In this document: piece after piece, positions 7,043 to 28,888 of the stretch
How positions within the stretch are numbered: the first letter of the stretch is position 1
How the letters are laid out: every line of letters begins with the position of its first letter
Virus record (IMG/VR): IMGVR_UViG_3300033993_003435
Coordinates: 1 to 34,550 of that record
Length of the DNA stretch: 34,550 bases
Strand: one strand, 5' to 3'
DNA from: a virus
Made by a program: the position numbers and the translations under genes
The notes under the pieces: model-generated
The model's database searches: none
Seen by the model: the letters and a program-made list of their open reading frames with translations, nothing else
Told to the model about the DNA's origin: nothing

Positions 7043-7050
7043 TATTTAGT
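7043..7050 (-). promoter_or_regulatory. T4-like late promoter box ACTAAATA
   Basis: ACTAAATA, then CTATT, then the ATG at 7037. The box overlaps the stop region of the fibre gene. The five-base spacing leaves no space for a ribosome-binding site. Confidence 0.6.
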
Positions 7051-10000
7051 TAATCTTAAAGACTTCAACCTTTGTCCAAGCTCCATCAGATGTACCTATA
7101 ATACTTTGAGCAGCATTGCTTGAATAGGCTATAAATTCAAGGTAATCAGTCGTACCATTAAGGAAGGCAATATCTGCTGTATTCTGTGTTGTGTTAACAT
7201 TAGAGTCACTAATAGGTTGCTGAGCTAGAGCCACCGATGTATCATTTCTTCTAATTTGAATGTTATTTTGATTACCTGAACCTGAAGTGCCACCGACCCA
7301 GGCTACTTGATAATCAACATGATAATAACCAGGGATGGTTGGTGTAAGTCTGCGGGTGCTTCTATCAAACCAATTATTTGGATCATTTAAAGGATCGAGA
7401 GTTACAGTAGTATCAGAAGCGTTATTAGCTGTTTGATTTGCTGTTAAAGATAAAGTGACAACGTAGTTTGTATTTGATTCAATATTTCCTTGAACCGATA
7501 AGTTATTAACGTATGTGTAATTTGCTTTAGATGCACTTAAACTTGATCCTAAGATAAAGGTATTAGCAAATCCCTTTGTATTATTAGCAGACCCACCAGC
7601 AACGAATGAGTAGTTACCAGATGCTGTATTACAGAAACCACCAACGATAACGGAGAAACCACTAGATACAAGATTTCTACAACCTGCACCTATGAAAATA
7701 CATCCGCCAGAAGCTATATTATTTCTCCCGCCAATAACTGTTGAGGCACCACCACTTGTGATACAATTTGTATAACCTGAAACAGTATTTCTGCTACCGC
7801 CACATATTGCATTACCACTTCCGCCTAAAATCGTATTAACATCATTTGCAGGCGAATTGACTGTGTTAAAAAGCCCTCCTAAAATAGAGTGATAACTGCC
7901 TGCACATATTCTATTTGTGAGACCACCGACAATGTTATTATAGTTGCCTGTACTTATTGTATTTGTGATACCACCGACAATGTTATTATAACTTCCTGTA
8001 CTTATTGTATTTGTGTCTCCACCTCCAACAAAGCTAAAGCTACCAAATGATGTATTTCTAAAACCACTTCCCACAAAATTATAACAACCGGACGCTGTAT
8101 TTAAAATACCTCCGCCAATAAAACTGTTTCGCCCGCCGATGTTTAAGCATCTATCATAAACAAAGATACTACAAGCACTCAATCCTGTTCTGCATGCACT
8201 ATAGTCTTCATTAATAATAATGCAGTTCGCAGCATTCGTAACGACATTGGCTGTAGTAAAACATGCTGATGATAGGGTACTATTAGCTGTACCTGATGTC
8301 ATCCACATTAAGGATACTGCTCCTGTTGTACCTGATGCACTAAAGCACGATCCGATGCCTGTAGCTATTAAAGCTGTATTAGTTCCATTACCTGATAGGT
8401 TAGCACCAAAAGTGATATTAGCTGGAGTAAAGCCACCAGTATGGTTAAAAGAACCACCAACAATACTAGAATTAAAGAGAGGGTTATGATTGAATTTACC
8501 ACCGGCGATAGTTGAGAAAGCACCTAATACAGTATTACATAAACCACCTGCTATATTTGAATAGTTTCCAGAAGCCGTTTGTCTATAACCCCCTGAAATC
8601 GTAGTACGAGCTCCGCATGTTGTATTTGCATGTCCGAGAACTACGTTAACACTTCCGCATGCTCTATTTGATGCTCCCATTGCAACACCAATATTTCCAA
8701 TGACCTGATTCAGATATCCTGATGCGGTTCCAGCAGCACCACCAGTGCAAATAATATTACCTCTCCCGCCTAGTATACTTGCACAGTTAGCAATAACAGT
8801 ATTAGCACAACCGCCTACTATAACAGAACAGCTACCAGTTACTGTATTACTTGCACCTCCACCGATAAAACTATAGCGCCCTGAAGCTGTATTAAGTTTA
8901 CCACCAGCTATAGTATTAACGTACCCTGTCTGGTTTATTGTTCTGTCATAAACATATACAGATGTAGCACTAAGACCAGATGAGGTACAAGTACTATAAT
9001 CATTATTAACTACAATAAAGTTAGTACCAGTTGCTGCAATTGTAGCTGTTGTAAATATACCAGAGCTTAGAGGTACAGTAGGTGTAGCATAGTATAGAGA
9101 AACATTACCAGTAGTAAAAGGAAAAGAGAAACAGCTTTGGATACCAGTACCAGTTAATCTGGTCTGGGTACCATTACCTGAAATTGATGCTGTTGTGATA
9201 TTAAAAGGAGCAAATCCACCGGTATGATTAGCAACGCCTCCACCAATAATTGAGTCTCGAAGAGGGTTAAAGTTACCGAGACCGCCAACGATAATAGAAT
9301 AGGCTGAAGAAGCTGTAATAGCATTACAACTACCTCCAGCGATATTGCTAGGTGCGGCTAATGCACAATTCTGCAGACCTCCGCCTACAGAGCTGCAATT
9401 ACCAATAGCACAATTTGAATTACCAGCAGCTACAATTGATGCTCTACCTTGAGCTAAATTAGATAAACCACCAACAACATTAGCAAATGTACCAACAGAA
9501 GCAGTGTTGTTTCTACCTCCTACAACTACATTATAAGCAGCTGAAGCTGTATTACAACATCCACCGTTTATAGAGCTATAATTACCCGAAGCTGTATTCT
9601 TATTACCACCAACAGCTACAGCATAGTTACCTGTAGCTCTATTTCCTGAACCAGCGCCTACAAATGTTGCATAGCCTGTTGCACGTGAACTAAAACCGCC
9701 AACGATTGATGAATAGGTTCCAGATGCTATATTACAATCACCTCCTAAGACACCAGAGAATATACCAGAAGCTATATTATCACCTAAAACTGTATCAATT
9801 GATGACGTTAAAGAAACAATTGTAAAGGGATTAGTTGAAACTGCTTGATACGCTGTATTCCATTGATCTGAATTTCCGTCTCCTTGTATGTAAATCTTGC
9901 CACTCGTCGTGATATCCGACGTCGCTGATATTTCACCGACTACAGTTAATGTCTTATTAGGTGTACTCGTCTTAACACCTACATTAGGATGCGAACCATT

Positions 10001-11965
10001 ATTACCACCAACATGAAGTACTTCAATACCTTGATCCAAATCATAGAATGAAGCAATGTCACCATCTCCATTGTTACCAATATATAATGCAGGACCACTC
10101 CCTATGTGAACAACGCTCAAAGCACTTGTAACAGAAAAGACAGTGTTTGCAAACGTTGTAGTGCCTGTCGCTGTCAAGTTACCAAAGACAGTTAAATTAT
10201 TATTGATTCTTACAGGACCTGAAACTAAGCCACCAGTGAGATTGAGAAAGTTACTATCTACATAGTTTGTTGTAGCATATAATGCAGAATTGCTAGCGTA
10301 TACAGTAGAGATATTATATGCAGTATCCCAATTAGCACTCGTACTAATAACAAGAGCATTAACGTTAGGGTTACCAGCACCGCCTCCGCTCCCAGATAGA
10401 ATATTAAATAAACTAACGCCACCAGAGAGATATTGACCGGTAACGTTCAGATCGCCATTCATCGTACCGCCATTAGCGTATTGTACAGCATTTGAACCAC
10501 CACCGCCTCCGAGGTCAAGAATGCGTCTAGCGTACGACATGACCTCTTCTGATACCTTAGCTACCTTAGCGTCTGTATATTTTCTTGCGTCATCAACTAG
10601 TAACTGGACGTTCTTCTTCTCAGTGACAAAAGATTGTATTCTCTTGTTTATATCTTTAATGGTGGTGTTGAGCTCGGGGAGCTTTCCGTCTACTTCGCTC
10701 TTAAATTTATCAATTGAATACCCGACAGTGTTGAGTTTATCTGTTATTGTATTGTTTAAATTCTGCTTATGTTCATCAAGTAATACAGTTACAGCCTTAT
10801 TTAACTCCTCTGTCTTTTCGTTAAAGATCCTTGAGGCTGTCTCCGTAGAGGAGGTTTTAAACTCACGAGACAGGTTGTTTTTATATTCAGCTAAATCTGT
10901 AGCTACCTTTTCACTAAATTGATCCTGTAAAATACCAGCTCTATTTACAAGAAGCACATCAACATTATCATTGTTTAAAGTTATTTTTTCAGTAACAATA
11001 ACATCAAGTGACTTAGTTATCGTATCAATCTCTGAACCGATATTACGCTTATGCTCTTCTAGTTCTGTAATGATTTTTTCTGTAAAAACAGCTTCAAGCT
11101 CAGAAGCACGTTCAAGAAGTAGCTTATCATTCTCAACAGAGGCCTGCTCTAATCTCTCTGCTAGAAGAGAATTAATGCTACTCTTAATCTCATTTACTTG
11201 ATTATCCTGATATTTCTTAACTTCCTCCAGATTGGCAGAAGATAGTGTTTCAAGATATTTACCGACATTAATTTGCTGATCATCAAACTGTCCTTGTATA
11301 GATGCAACAGCTTCGTTAATTGCTTGCTCAAGAAGCTCTTTCTGTTGTTCACTAATACGAAAGGTTTCATGTAATAACTCTGACTTATAATCCTCAAGCG
11401 TTTTTTGTATTCTACGATCATCCTCTAACACTATACGCTCTCTATTCAATCGCTGTACTTCAGCCTTAATTCTTGCTTGCTCCTCAATAAGATGTGCTTC
11501 ATATGATTTAACCCTTTCTACATATTCGCTAACATCTTCTGATACAGGTATTATCTGAAGATCATCAATCGAGTCCTCTATATTCTTTTCGTTACCGATA
11601 GTTACATCATAACTCTCTTCGATGAAATTAGGTAGTGTTGTGTGTTCGCTTATTGACGAATAAGAACCGAGTAAAGAGAGATTAATGGTTGATTGAGGTA
11701 GCTCTTTACTGCCTTCAACAGTGACGAGCTTAAAGCGGACACTAGGGTAAACACGACCATCAGGGAGCTGGATATCAGTCTCTAAATAGTTGTTGGTTGA
11801 TTCTTGTATGTAGCTATGAATAAACTCATTATCCTTTGTAGAGATAATAGATACATTATCGAGACTCTCTTCGAGAGGTCGACAGAATATAACATTTTCA
11901 ATACTCGAACTCTCGATAAAGGAACACGATATTCGATTATCAATGACTATATCAATAAGCTGCAC
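7046..11965 (-). CDS. Giant tail fibre with coiled coil, YadA-like beta-roll repeats and C1q-like tip
   Basis: This 1639-residue protein starts with GTG. Residues 1-145: beta-rich attachment region. About 145-480: long coiled coil rich in Glu/Lys/Leu. About 485-490: glycine hinge (LGGGGGSNAV). About 490-730: fibre-type repeats (MNGDLNVTG, VFGNLTATG, SDITTSGKIYIQG). About 730-1490: many 14-16-residue repeats of the type GGxxNTASGxYSxIxGG, as in the trimeric YadA/Hia head (left-handed beta-roll). Two homologous inserts (about 896-1011 and 1155-1278) interrupt the roll. About 1500-1639: a C1q/TNF-like jelly roll (LTPTIPGYYHVDYQVAW), the likely receptor-binding tip. Cys is unusually frequent in the roll. 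It is probably a trimeric long tail fibre or baseplate spike for host recognition. A late box (CATAAATA) ends five bases before GTG. Confidence 0.85.
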   Translation of the reverse strand: MQLIDIVIDNRISCSFIESSSIENVIFCRPLEESLDNVSIISTKDNEFIHSYIQESTNNYLETDIQLPDGRVYPSVRFKLVTVEGSKELPQSTINLSLLGSYSSISEHTTLPNFIEESYDVTIGNEKNIEDSIDDLQIIPVSEDVSEYVERVKSYEAHLIEEQARIKAEVQRLNRERIVLEDDRRIQKTLEDYKSELLHETFRISEQQKELLEQAINEAVASIQGQFDDQQINVGKYLETLSSANLEEVKKYQDNQVNEIKSSINSLLAERLEQASVENDKLLLERASELEAVFTEKIITELEEHKRNIGSEIDTITKSLDVIVTEKITLNNDNVDVLLVNRAGILQDQFSEKVATDLAEYKNNLSREFKTSSTETASRIFNEKTEELNKAVTVLLDEHKQNLNNTITDKLNTVGYSIDKFKSEVDGKLPELNTTIKDINKRIQSFVTEKKNVQLLVDDARKYTDAKVAKVSEEVMSYARRILDLGGGGGSNAVQYANGGTMNGDLNVTGQYLSGGVSLFNILSGSGGGAGNPNVNALVISTSANWDTAYNISTVYASNSALYATTNYVDSNFLNLTGGLVSGPVRINNNLTVFGNLTATGTTTFANTVFSVTSALSVVHIGSGPALYIGNNGDGDIASFYDLDQGIEVLHVGGNNGSHPNVGVKTSTPNKTLTVVGEISATSDITTSGKIYIQGDGNSDQWNTAYQAVSTNPFTIVSLTSSIDTVLGDNIASGIFSGVLGGDCNIASGTYSSIVGGFSSRATGYATFVGAGSGNRATGNYAVAVGGNKNTASGNYSSINGGCCNTASAAYNVVVGGRNNTASVGTFANVVGGLSNLAQGRASIVAAGNSNCAIGNCSSVGGGLQNCALAAPSNIAGGSCNAITASSAYSIIVGGLGNFNPLRDSIIGGGVANHTGGFAPFNITTASISGNGTQTRLTGTGIQSCFSFPFTTGNVSLYYATPTVPLSSGIFTTATIAATGTNFIVVNNDYSTCTSSGLSATSVYVYDRTINQTGYVNTIAGGKLNTASGRYSFIGGGASNTVTGSCSVIVGGCANTVIANCASILGGRGNIICTGGAAGTASGYLNQVIGNIGVAMGASNRACGSVNVVLGHANTTCGARTTISGGYRQTASGNYSNIAGGLCNTVLGAFSTIAGGKFNHNPLFNSSIVGGSFNHTGGFTPANITFGANLSGNGTNTALIATGIGSCFSASGTTGAVSLMWMTSGTANSTLSSACFTTANVVTNAANCIIINEDYSACRTGLSACSIFVYDRCLNIGGRNSFIGGGILNTASGCYNFVGSGFRNTSFGSFSFVGGGDTNTISTGSYNNIVGGITNTISTGNYNNIVGGLTNRICAGSYHSILGGLFNTVNSPANDVNTILGGSGNAICGGSRNTVSGYTNCITSGGASTVIGGRNNIASGGCIFIGAGCRNLVSSGFSVIVGGFCNTASGNYSFVAGGSANNTKGFANTFILGSSLSASKANYTYVNNLSVQGNIESNTNYVVTLSLTANQTANNASDTTVTLDPLNDPNNWFDRSTRRLTPTIPGYYHVDYQVAWVGGTSGSGNQNNIQIRRNDTSVALAQQPISDSNVNTTQNTADIAFLNGTTDYLEFIAYSSNAAQSIIGTSDGAWTKVEVFKIN
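7923..8018 (-). repeat. 48-bp tandem duplication inside the fibre gene
   Basis: Two adjacent 48-base units (7923-7970 and 7971-8018) are nearly identical and keep frame. Each encodes one 16-residue beta-roll repeat (NNIVGGxTNTISTGxY). The near-identity points to a recent repeat expansion that changes fibre length. Confidence 0.75.
8130..9276 (-). repeat. Duplicated ~115-residue insert domain in the fibre
   Basis: Two homologous segments lie at about 8930-9276 and 8130-8500. Each begins NPLxxSxIxGGxxNHTGGF and carries NITxxxxxSGNGT and TGIxSCFS. Each ends with a DYSxC...LSAxSxxVYDR block, then returns to NTASG beta-roll repeats. They look like a duplicated small domain (loop or side knob) set into the roll. 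Identity is moderate, so this duplication is older than the 48-bp one. Confidence 0.7.
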
Positions 11966-13265: not shown

Positions 13266-13339
13266 TGGTAGGAGATGACGGTAACGCTCCGCCGAATCCT
13301 GAGTGTAAATCAGGTGTTTTACTTTTAAACTAATCTCCC
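13266..13339 (-). tRNA. tRNA-Val (UAC), with atypical D- and T-loops
   Basis: Acceptor GGGAGAT/ATCTCCT and anticodon stem CCTGA/TCAGG, with loop TTTACAC (anticodon TAC). CCA is encoded. The D-loop (AAAAGTA) lacks the GG pair and the T-loop (AGCGTTA) lacks the TTC signature. The usual G18-U55 and G19-C56 elbow contacts are therefore both missing. Confidence 0.8.
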
Positions 13340-28020: not shown

Positions 28021-28093
28021 TGGCAGGGCCGGGAATCGAACCCGGAATCTTGTGGTTATGAGCCACACGACTTAACCGTTTGTCCACCCTGCG
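28021..28093 (-). tRNA. tRNA-Met (CAU)
   Basis: Anticodon stem TGTGG/CCACA with loop CTCATAA (CAT). T-arm CCGGG/TTCGATT/CCCGG. Acceptor GCAGGG/CCCTGC (positions 2-7) with an unpaired C1-C72. CCA is not encoded. The stem lacks the three G-C pairs of initiator tRNA. It could be elongator Met or, after lysidine modification, Ile (AUA). Confidence 0.85.
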
Positions 28094-28169
28094 TTAAAAT
28101 GTACTATCAAAGATCAATTCTTATTCCATTAATATATAGTCTATAGTAGGGACTGGCAAGAATAAAAAA

Positions 28170-28246
28170 TGGCACGTGGTGAAAGAATCGAACTTTCCCA
28201 ATCGCTTTTGGAGAGCAATTCGCCTATCCTTGGAACATTACCACGC
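28170..28246 (-). tRNA. tRNA-Trp (CCA)
   Basis: Acceptor GCGTGGT/ACCACGT, G73 and encoded CCA. Anticodon stem TTGCT/AGCGA with loop CTCCAAA (CCA). T-arm GAAAG/TTCGATT/CTTTC. Confidence 0.9.
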
Positions 28247-28252
28247 AAAAAG

Positions 28253-28335
28253 TGGAGCCTGTGGAGGGACTCGAACCCCCGTTGTTTGTATACCACTTTA
28301 CAAAAGTGGTGCTGTCGCCGCTGAGCCACACAGGC
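28253..28335 (-). tRNA. tRNA-Thr (UGU)
   Basis: Acceptor GCCTGTG/CACAGGC and encoded CCA. Anticodon stem CCACT/AGTGG with loop TTTGTAA (TGT). A 12-base variable region (long for Thr). T-arm GGGGG/TTCGAGT/CCCTC. A TCTAAATA box lies eight bases upstream of the 5' end (28344-28351). Confidence 0.88.
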
Positions 28336-28439: not shown

Positions 28440-28888
28440 TGGTGGAGGCGTCGGAGATCTGCCCTCCGAGTCCTTATAATATTTCTCTTATATTTTCTAC
28501 ACGCTTATGTAAGTTTAGGATTTGATTGACTACAGGCTCCTATGGCTTACCAGCCTATCTTTTTAAGTCTGCCTATATAGATGAAGAGTTCTATACAACC
28601 CCTTGTACTGAGTTTTCTAGGAGTCACAAGTACCTCCATAACCTATTGGTTTAGCTCCCTAAGATCTTTAATAGGATCCAATCTTAGTTTTTAGGCAGCG
28701 AGGAGTGACTCTTCTTCGCAGCTGGCGAGGATATCGTCAGCGTTGTTGAAACAGTACTCAGCTTCTGCTAAGAGCGCATCGATGTTATCTTCTGCGTTTA
28801 GTTTTTTAGAAGGCTTTTATAGTGGCCAACCTTCCAACCACTGCGTGCAATATAAAACCAGACTATAAGTCGATTCTATGTCGCCCCC
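28440..28888 (-). ncRNA. ssrA: tmRNA (transfer-messenger RNA), one-piece
   Basis: The tRNA-like domain is closed by GGGGGCG (5') and CGCCTCC (3'), then A and encoded CCA. The 5' side continues GACATAGAATCGAC, as in tmRNA D-arms. The 3' T-stem is CGGAG/CTCCG with an atypical loop GGCAGAT. The tag ORF (28691-28795) runs from a probable resume codon GCA to TAA and encodes AEDNIDALLAEAEYCFNNAD then DILASCEEESLLAA. The terminal L-L-A-A is the protease-recognised end. tmRNA frees stalled ribosomes and marks nascent chains. At 449 nt with a 34-residue tag it is on the long side. Confidence 0.9.
28691..28795 (-). CDS. tmRNA tag peptide ORF (34 aa)
   Basis: Translated only by trans-translation. The likely resume codon is GCA 28793-28795, in the context CTAAAC-GCA that resembles known resume sites. 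It ends with SLLAA and TAA at 28691-28693. It holds two Cys and ten acidic residues, longer and more acidic than the usual 8-15-residue tags. Confidence 0.75.
   Translation of the reverse strand, partial: AEDNIDALLAEAEYCFNNADDILASCEEESLLAA

Follow-up and report, generated by a model that had tools for sequence, protein, structure and literature searches.

A virus-encoded tmRNA with a 34-codon tag and a family of phage tmRNAs with long, conserved tags

The 34.5-kb virus record IMGVR_UViG_3300033993_003435, analysed here over all of its 34,550 nucleotides and called the window below, bears a complete one-piece tmRNA gene whose 34-codon tag places it in a family of phage tmRNAs with long, conserved tags. 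Such a family has apparently not been described so far; no description of it was found in the open-access literature, which defined the scope of that search. Phage tmRNAs are usually viewed as borrowed copies of the host rescue RNA that carry a short degron. The present family is widespread and mostly missed by ARAGORN, and the exact core of its long, conserved tag does not occur in sequenced prokaryotes; this points to ribosome rescue being used in a phage-specific way. We consider it fairly probable that the RNA is a working phage tmRNA which uses the host AlaRS and SmpB, and whose tag combines an LAA-type degron with a selected helical module making an added protein contact.

The tmRNA gene and its known counterparts

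The initial annotation of the window, made from its sequence, had described a complete one-piece tmRNA with GGGGGCG/CGCCTCC ends and an encoded CCA, and had proposed a search with the tmRNA covariance model as a check. The description was borne out: RF00023 covers positions 28888..28440 (minus strand) with all 374 model positions (1-374), at 85.7 bits (E 4.4e-32) against a gathering score of 47. This score, the relatives and the covariation rule out a chance match to the model. The gene contains an acceptor stem with a G3-U70 pair, a discriminator A and CCA, PK1 upstream of the tag, and a GCA resume codon opening a stop-terminated frame with a hydrophobic end (...LLAA, UAA) (Table 1). The window RNA has neither the canonical T-loop (UUC) nor the canonical D-loop (GG), which tmRNAs usually possess, though a match to the model does not depend on them.

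PK1 is established by covariation among 59 distinct family sequences. In 58 of them its stem P1 pairs completely, via nine stem variants, and when P1 strands were swapped between variants, full pairing was obtained in only 5 of 86 cases. Folding of the window tmRNA is also more stable than that of dinucleotide shuffles (z -4.0; 0 of 100 shuffles as good). ARAGORN called 14 tRNAs in the window and missed the tmRNA at 28440-28888; on nine family loci it called a single tmRNA, with a tag ten residues short. The tmRNA is followed directly on its 3' side by three tRNA genes of the same strand (28021..28335, minus), and a tRNA-Thr(TGT) gene is found near the tmRNA in several relatives as well.

Table 1. 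Features of the tmRNA gene and the adjoining tRNA genes in the window
Feature	Position	Strand	Basis
One-piece tmRNA gene (ssrA), CCA encoded	28440..28888	-	RF00023 full model, 85.7 bits; relatives L006, L007, L008, L009 and others
Acceptor stem, 5' half GGGGGCG	28882..28888	-	pairs with 28444-28450, third pair G-U
D-loop ACATAGAATCGAC, UAG type	28869..28881	-	UAG and GGCAG T-loop co-occur, 7/7
Pseudoknot 1 (PK1)	28806..28842	-	compensatory variants in P1
34-codon tag frame AEDNIDALLAEAEYCFNNADDILASCEEESLLAA, resume codon GCA at 28795-28793	28694..28795	-	in-frame selection; U/A at -5/-4
Tag stop codon TAA	28691..28693	-	translation
T-arm, 6-bp stem TCGGAG/CTCCGA, loop GGCAGAT (28457-28463)	28451..28469	-	loop core recurs in distinct, still paired stems
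Acceptor stem, 3' half CGCCTCC	28444..28450	-	pairing with 5' half
Discriminator A and encoded CCA	28440..28443	-	sequence
tRNA-Thr(TGT)	28335-28253	-	ARAGORN
tRNA-Trp(CCA)	28246-28170	-	ARAGORN
tRNA-Met(CAT)	28093-28021	-	ARAGORN

With the bacterial one-piece tmRNA (ssrA, RF00023) the window RNA shares the tRNA-like domain with G3-U70 and CCA, PK1, the alanine resume codon, the alanine-rich hydrophobic tag end and the UAA stop. The clade of the window differs from it in the 34-codon tag with a conserved middle, in the combination of a GGCAG T-loop with a UAG D-loop, and in escaping the ARAGORN call. Phage-borne ssrA is known from Bacillus phage G, mycobacteriophages (e.g. Bxz1), crAss-like cr7_1 and OM43 phage Melnitz, and in phage G and other known cases it is likewise located among tRNA genes. 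However, the tags called by ARAGORN in phage G and cr7_1 have 13 residues, and the Melnitz tmRNA is two-piece (PMC9004378). tmRNA genes were reported in 402 of 18,146 phage genomes (PMC9004378), and both tmRNA and SmpB genes are known from huge phages (PMC7162821). An unannotated tmRNA of Gordonia phage GodonK (MK620899.1, 84631-85159, minus; L144) resembles the window RNA in having a tag of more than the usual length, about 25 codons as read by eye (AEADVVVSDSDIAEIEAYANEAALV), but the tag sequence is unrelated and the RNA has an additional tRNA-like insert.

The long tag: conservation and possible role

Pattern scans of IMG/VR, based on the tag start, PK1, the back-translated core EAEYIFNNA and two D-loop types, gave together with the window 97 loci with 62 distinct tags; some contigs are copies of one phage (the tmRNAs of L007 and L008 are identical), so that loci do not stand for independent phages. 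Contigs of the family phages reach 218 kb, and some are T4-like. Searching for the exact 23 bases that span the resume site recovered four further viral contigs. Of these, L006 carries the same RNA as the window and L009 shares its odd T-loop; in L007 and L008 the T-loop is canonical and the tag, of equal length, has diverged.

The tag frame of the window (28795-28691, minus) translates to AEDNIDALLAEAEYCFNNADDILASCEEESLLAA and a stop, the same 34 residues, ending in ESLLAA, that had been annotated initially. They had been regarded as far beyond the usual 8-15 residues. The tag is indeed long; one review, however, gives a range of 8-35 residues (PMC3968760), which puts 34 residues at the edge of the published range, and only 45 beyond it. 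Tags have 32-35 codons in 95 of the 97 loci and 45 codons in two. Two patterns in which the tag sequence is not used, those for PK1 and for the UAG D-loop, returned contigs with 32-35 codon tags in 16 of 16 and 8 of 8 cases, respectively; unrelated phage tmRNAs, whose tags have about 10-15 and 29 codons, were also caught by the AAGG D-loop pattern. A second group of tags has basic middles (e.g. AKTKVSAILAKVKKAANTITEFCLCDEMAPLAIAA) and the length of the acidic group; there is little shared sequence between acidic and basic tags, yet both have 32-35 codons. The 45-codon tags (L076 and L077) contain an extra VVDSVVDFFNGA stretch past the core. Tags of another type, with 29 codons (ASKGEVTVSASKGIRFSARSSVKAETFAV and ATASTSEVVVSGKNVKFSARTVKAQSFAV), occur in other phage tmRNAs (L162, L175, L166 and L170); we take their second half to resemble cyanobacterial tags.

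When 33 acidic tags obtained with patterns lacking the core motif were compared, pN/pS from codon 5 to the end was 0.30 in the predicted frame versus 1.36 and 1.82 in the shifted frames, which, with pairs non-independent and uncorrected for multiple hits, is a contrast between frames and not a rate estimate. Judged from these sequences, the tag is under purifying selection from codon 5 onward. Conservation is strong at residues 9-23, which are encoded by several synonymous codons. In 92 of 97 loci the resume codon is preceded by U at -5 and A at -4, the frame-setting positions of E. coli tmRNA (U85 and A86). Frame selection is directed by the five nucleotides upstream (PMC3968760). The two cysteines of the window tag, initially put forward as a trait, lack conservation across the family: of the 62 distinct tags, 45 are free of cysteine and 3 have two, and a functional cysteine pair was rejected on these counts. 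Pfam gave no match to the tag, and PDB matches appeared only at E 0.08 or worse. AlphaFold2, supplied with nine aligned tags, predicted helices at 5-17 and 19-33 (mean pLDDT 82), which in a 34-residue peptide is weak evidence for a helical module; amphipathicity of the acidic tags is modest, their moment being matched by 3-11% of shuffles.

An unusually long and evolutionarily conserved tag suggests a role beyond marking proteins for destruction. A second function, such as redirecting tagged proteins or changing the choice of protease, had been raised in the initial annotation. Purifying selection on the tag middle across many phages makes some function beyond the terminal degron plausible; redirection or another protease stays conjectural, and 58 of the 62 distinct tags keep an AA or AV end (LAA in 48). 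The window tag itself carries the LAA-type C-terminus of a ClpXP ssrA degron (LLAA), from which degradation is predicted.

In the mechanism that we favour, the tmRNA would probably be transcribed and processed together with the adjoining tRNAs and charged with alanine by the host AlaRS via G3-U70. Host SmpB and EF-Tu would bring it to ribosomes stalled on broken mRNA in infection, where the stalled chain would gain Ala and 34 residues, comprising a start (AEDN) of the usual kind, the long helical module selected in these phages (approximately LLAEAEYIFNNADEFL) and a likewise usual LLAA end, the latter to be taken by host ClpXP-type proteases. Charging, use of SmpB, tagging and proteolysis are assumed here by analogy with established trans-translation. 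Most likely, the middle module would make an additional contact with a protein (adaptor, protease or other factor), beyond what a 10-residue tag offers. The long tag is a direct bait for a search for such a partner.

It is rather unlikely that this is an ordinary phage tmRNA with a lengthened degron, in which the LAA end suffices and the extra residues are tolerated or serve as an unstructured protease handle. Nearly all tags do have an LAA-like end, lengths of 8-35 residues had already been cited (PMC3968760), and unrelated tags of 20-29 codons occur in other phages. However, the strong conservation extends over residues 9-23 and not just the end, synonymous change being free, and the 32-35 codon length is kept nearly throughout the family. 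Still less probable is that length itself is the function, about 34 residues filling the ribosome exit tunnel so that the truncated chain has emerged by the time of its release, free to fold or be handled, with the sequence conserved for tunnel and helix needs. The length common to acidic and basic tags of different sequence would fit such a role; but two tags have 45 codons, specific residues (such as YIFNN in the acidic group) are conserved beyond what length would need, and common descent could equally preserve length.

Paired changes in the D-loop and T-loop

The T-loop of the window, GGCAGAT, lacks TTC, as had been pointed out initially, but this oddity is not singular and represents one D-loop/T-loop type of the larger family. 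L007, L008 and most relatives have a canonical T-loop and D-loop. Among 49 distinct versions of the tRNA-like domain, the UAG D-loop occurs with the GGCAG T-loop in 7 of 7 (L073 included) and the UGG D-loop with the UUCRA T-loop in 30 of 30; the AAGG D-loop is combined with UAUCRUA in 8 versions, with 2 UUCRA exceptions, and there are two others besides. The perfect 7/30 split has a probability of 1e-7 under the assumption of independent versions, which these are not fully. Both the T-stem and the acceptor stem show compensatory changes across the family. In L073 and L100, the GGCAG/UAG domain surrounds a tag and PK1 that elsewhere (L027, L097) accompany the UAUCRUA type, which looks like an exchange of the outer domain.

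SmpB binding was reported to need contacts between the T-loop and the D-loop (PMC3968760), and the matched GGCAG/UAG change of both loops thus reads, at the level of sequence, as an alternative elbow instead of decay. That these changes prevent charging, leaving a relic or an RNA that titrates SmpB, is very improbable: both loops deviate from the canonical elbow, and the DS6A phage RNA, which has the tRNA-like domain only, is thought able to inhibit tmRNA (PMC4131195), but the RNA retains G3-U70, CCA, the T-stem and PK1 together with an intact tag under selection, and the same loop type is found, along with the matching D-loop, on stems that differ yet remain paired. The paired elbow loops are a natural means of testing which features of tmRNA SmpB and AlaRS depend on. 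As a tentative extension of the preferred reading, that of a working tmRNA, the family might be a phage-specific lineage in which a selected helical module of 15-20 residues recruits a host or phage factor and routes rescued chains differently from the host system, the elbow types being tuned to different SmpB/AlaRS partners.

Distribution, neighbours and other genes of the window

The exact core EAEYIFNNA was found in 76 viral contigs, every match lying inside a tmRNA tag, and in 0 contigs of 84,980 prokaryote genomes. A tag copied from a host was rejected on this basis for the exact pattern only; the window core, EAEYCFNNA, falls outside it, and host tags that have diverged may have escaped the scan. 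Searching genomes a second time, for similar resume contexts, yielded a single tmRNA, from a Clostridium, with a tag of 9 residues. No record with the tag, its core or the whole RNA was present in a phage collection that includes cultured phages.

Among 32 larger related contigs, which may be fragments so that gene absences are not final, SmpB and SspB genes were found in none, ClpP in 2 and T4-type gp23 in 7; the lack of SmpB points to the use of host SmpB. psbA, tried as a cyanophage marker, was present in 0 of these 32 possibly fragmentary contigs. As to a partner encoded nearby, no gene family occurs within 6 kb in more than 24 of the 97 loci. In 20 of the 97 loci (represented by L018), a gene about 2.4 kb upstream, in the same orientation as the tmRNA, encodes an RNA ligase-like protein, recognised by eye. 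Assignment of a host by phage relatives was abandoned, as the markers disagree and indicate no consistent host: NrdB is nearest to Sinorhizobium phage Phosso (62%) and Agrobacterium phage Atu_ph07 (59%), a virion protein to Synechococcus phages, and gp23 of a relative is less than 35% identical to cyanophages.

Elsewhere in the window, a tRNA at 13269-13339 (minus) was detected by Rfam (52.2 bits) and missed by ARAGORN. A protein of 1639 aa with many similar repeats (7046-11965, minus), for which Pfam and PHROG gave no matches, is probably a fibre or adhesin. The window also encodes an Hsp20-type small heat shock protein (PF00011; 23852-24331, minus) and a sulfotransferase-family protein (PF13469; 50-868, plus).
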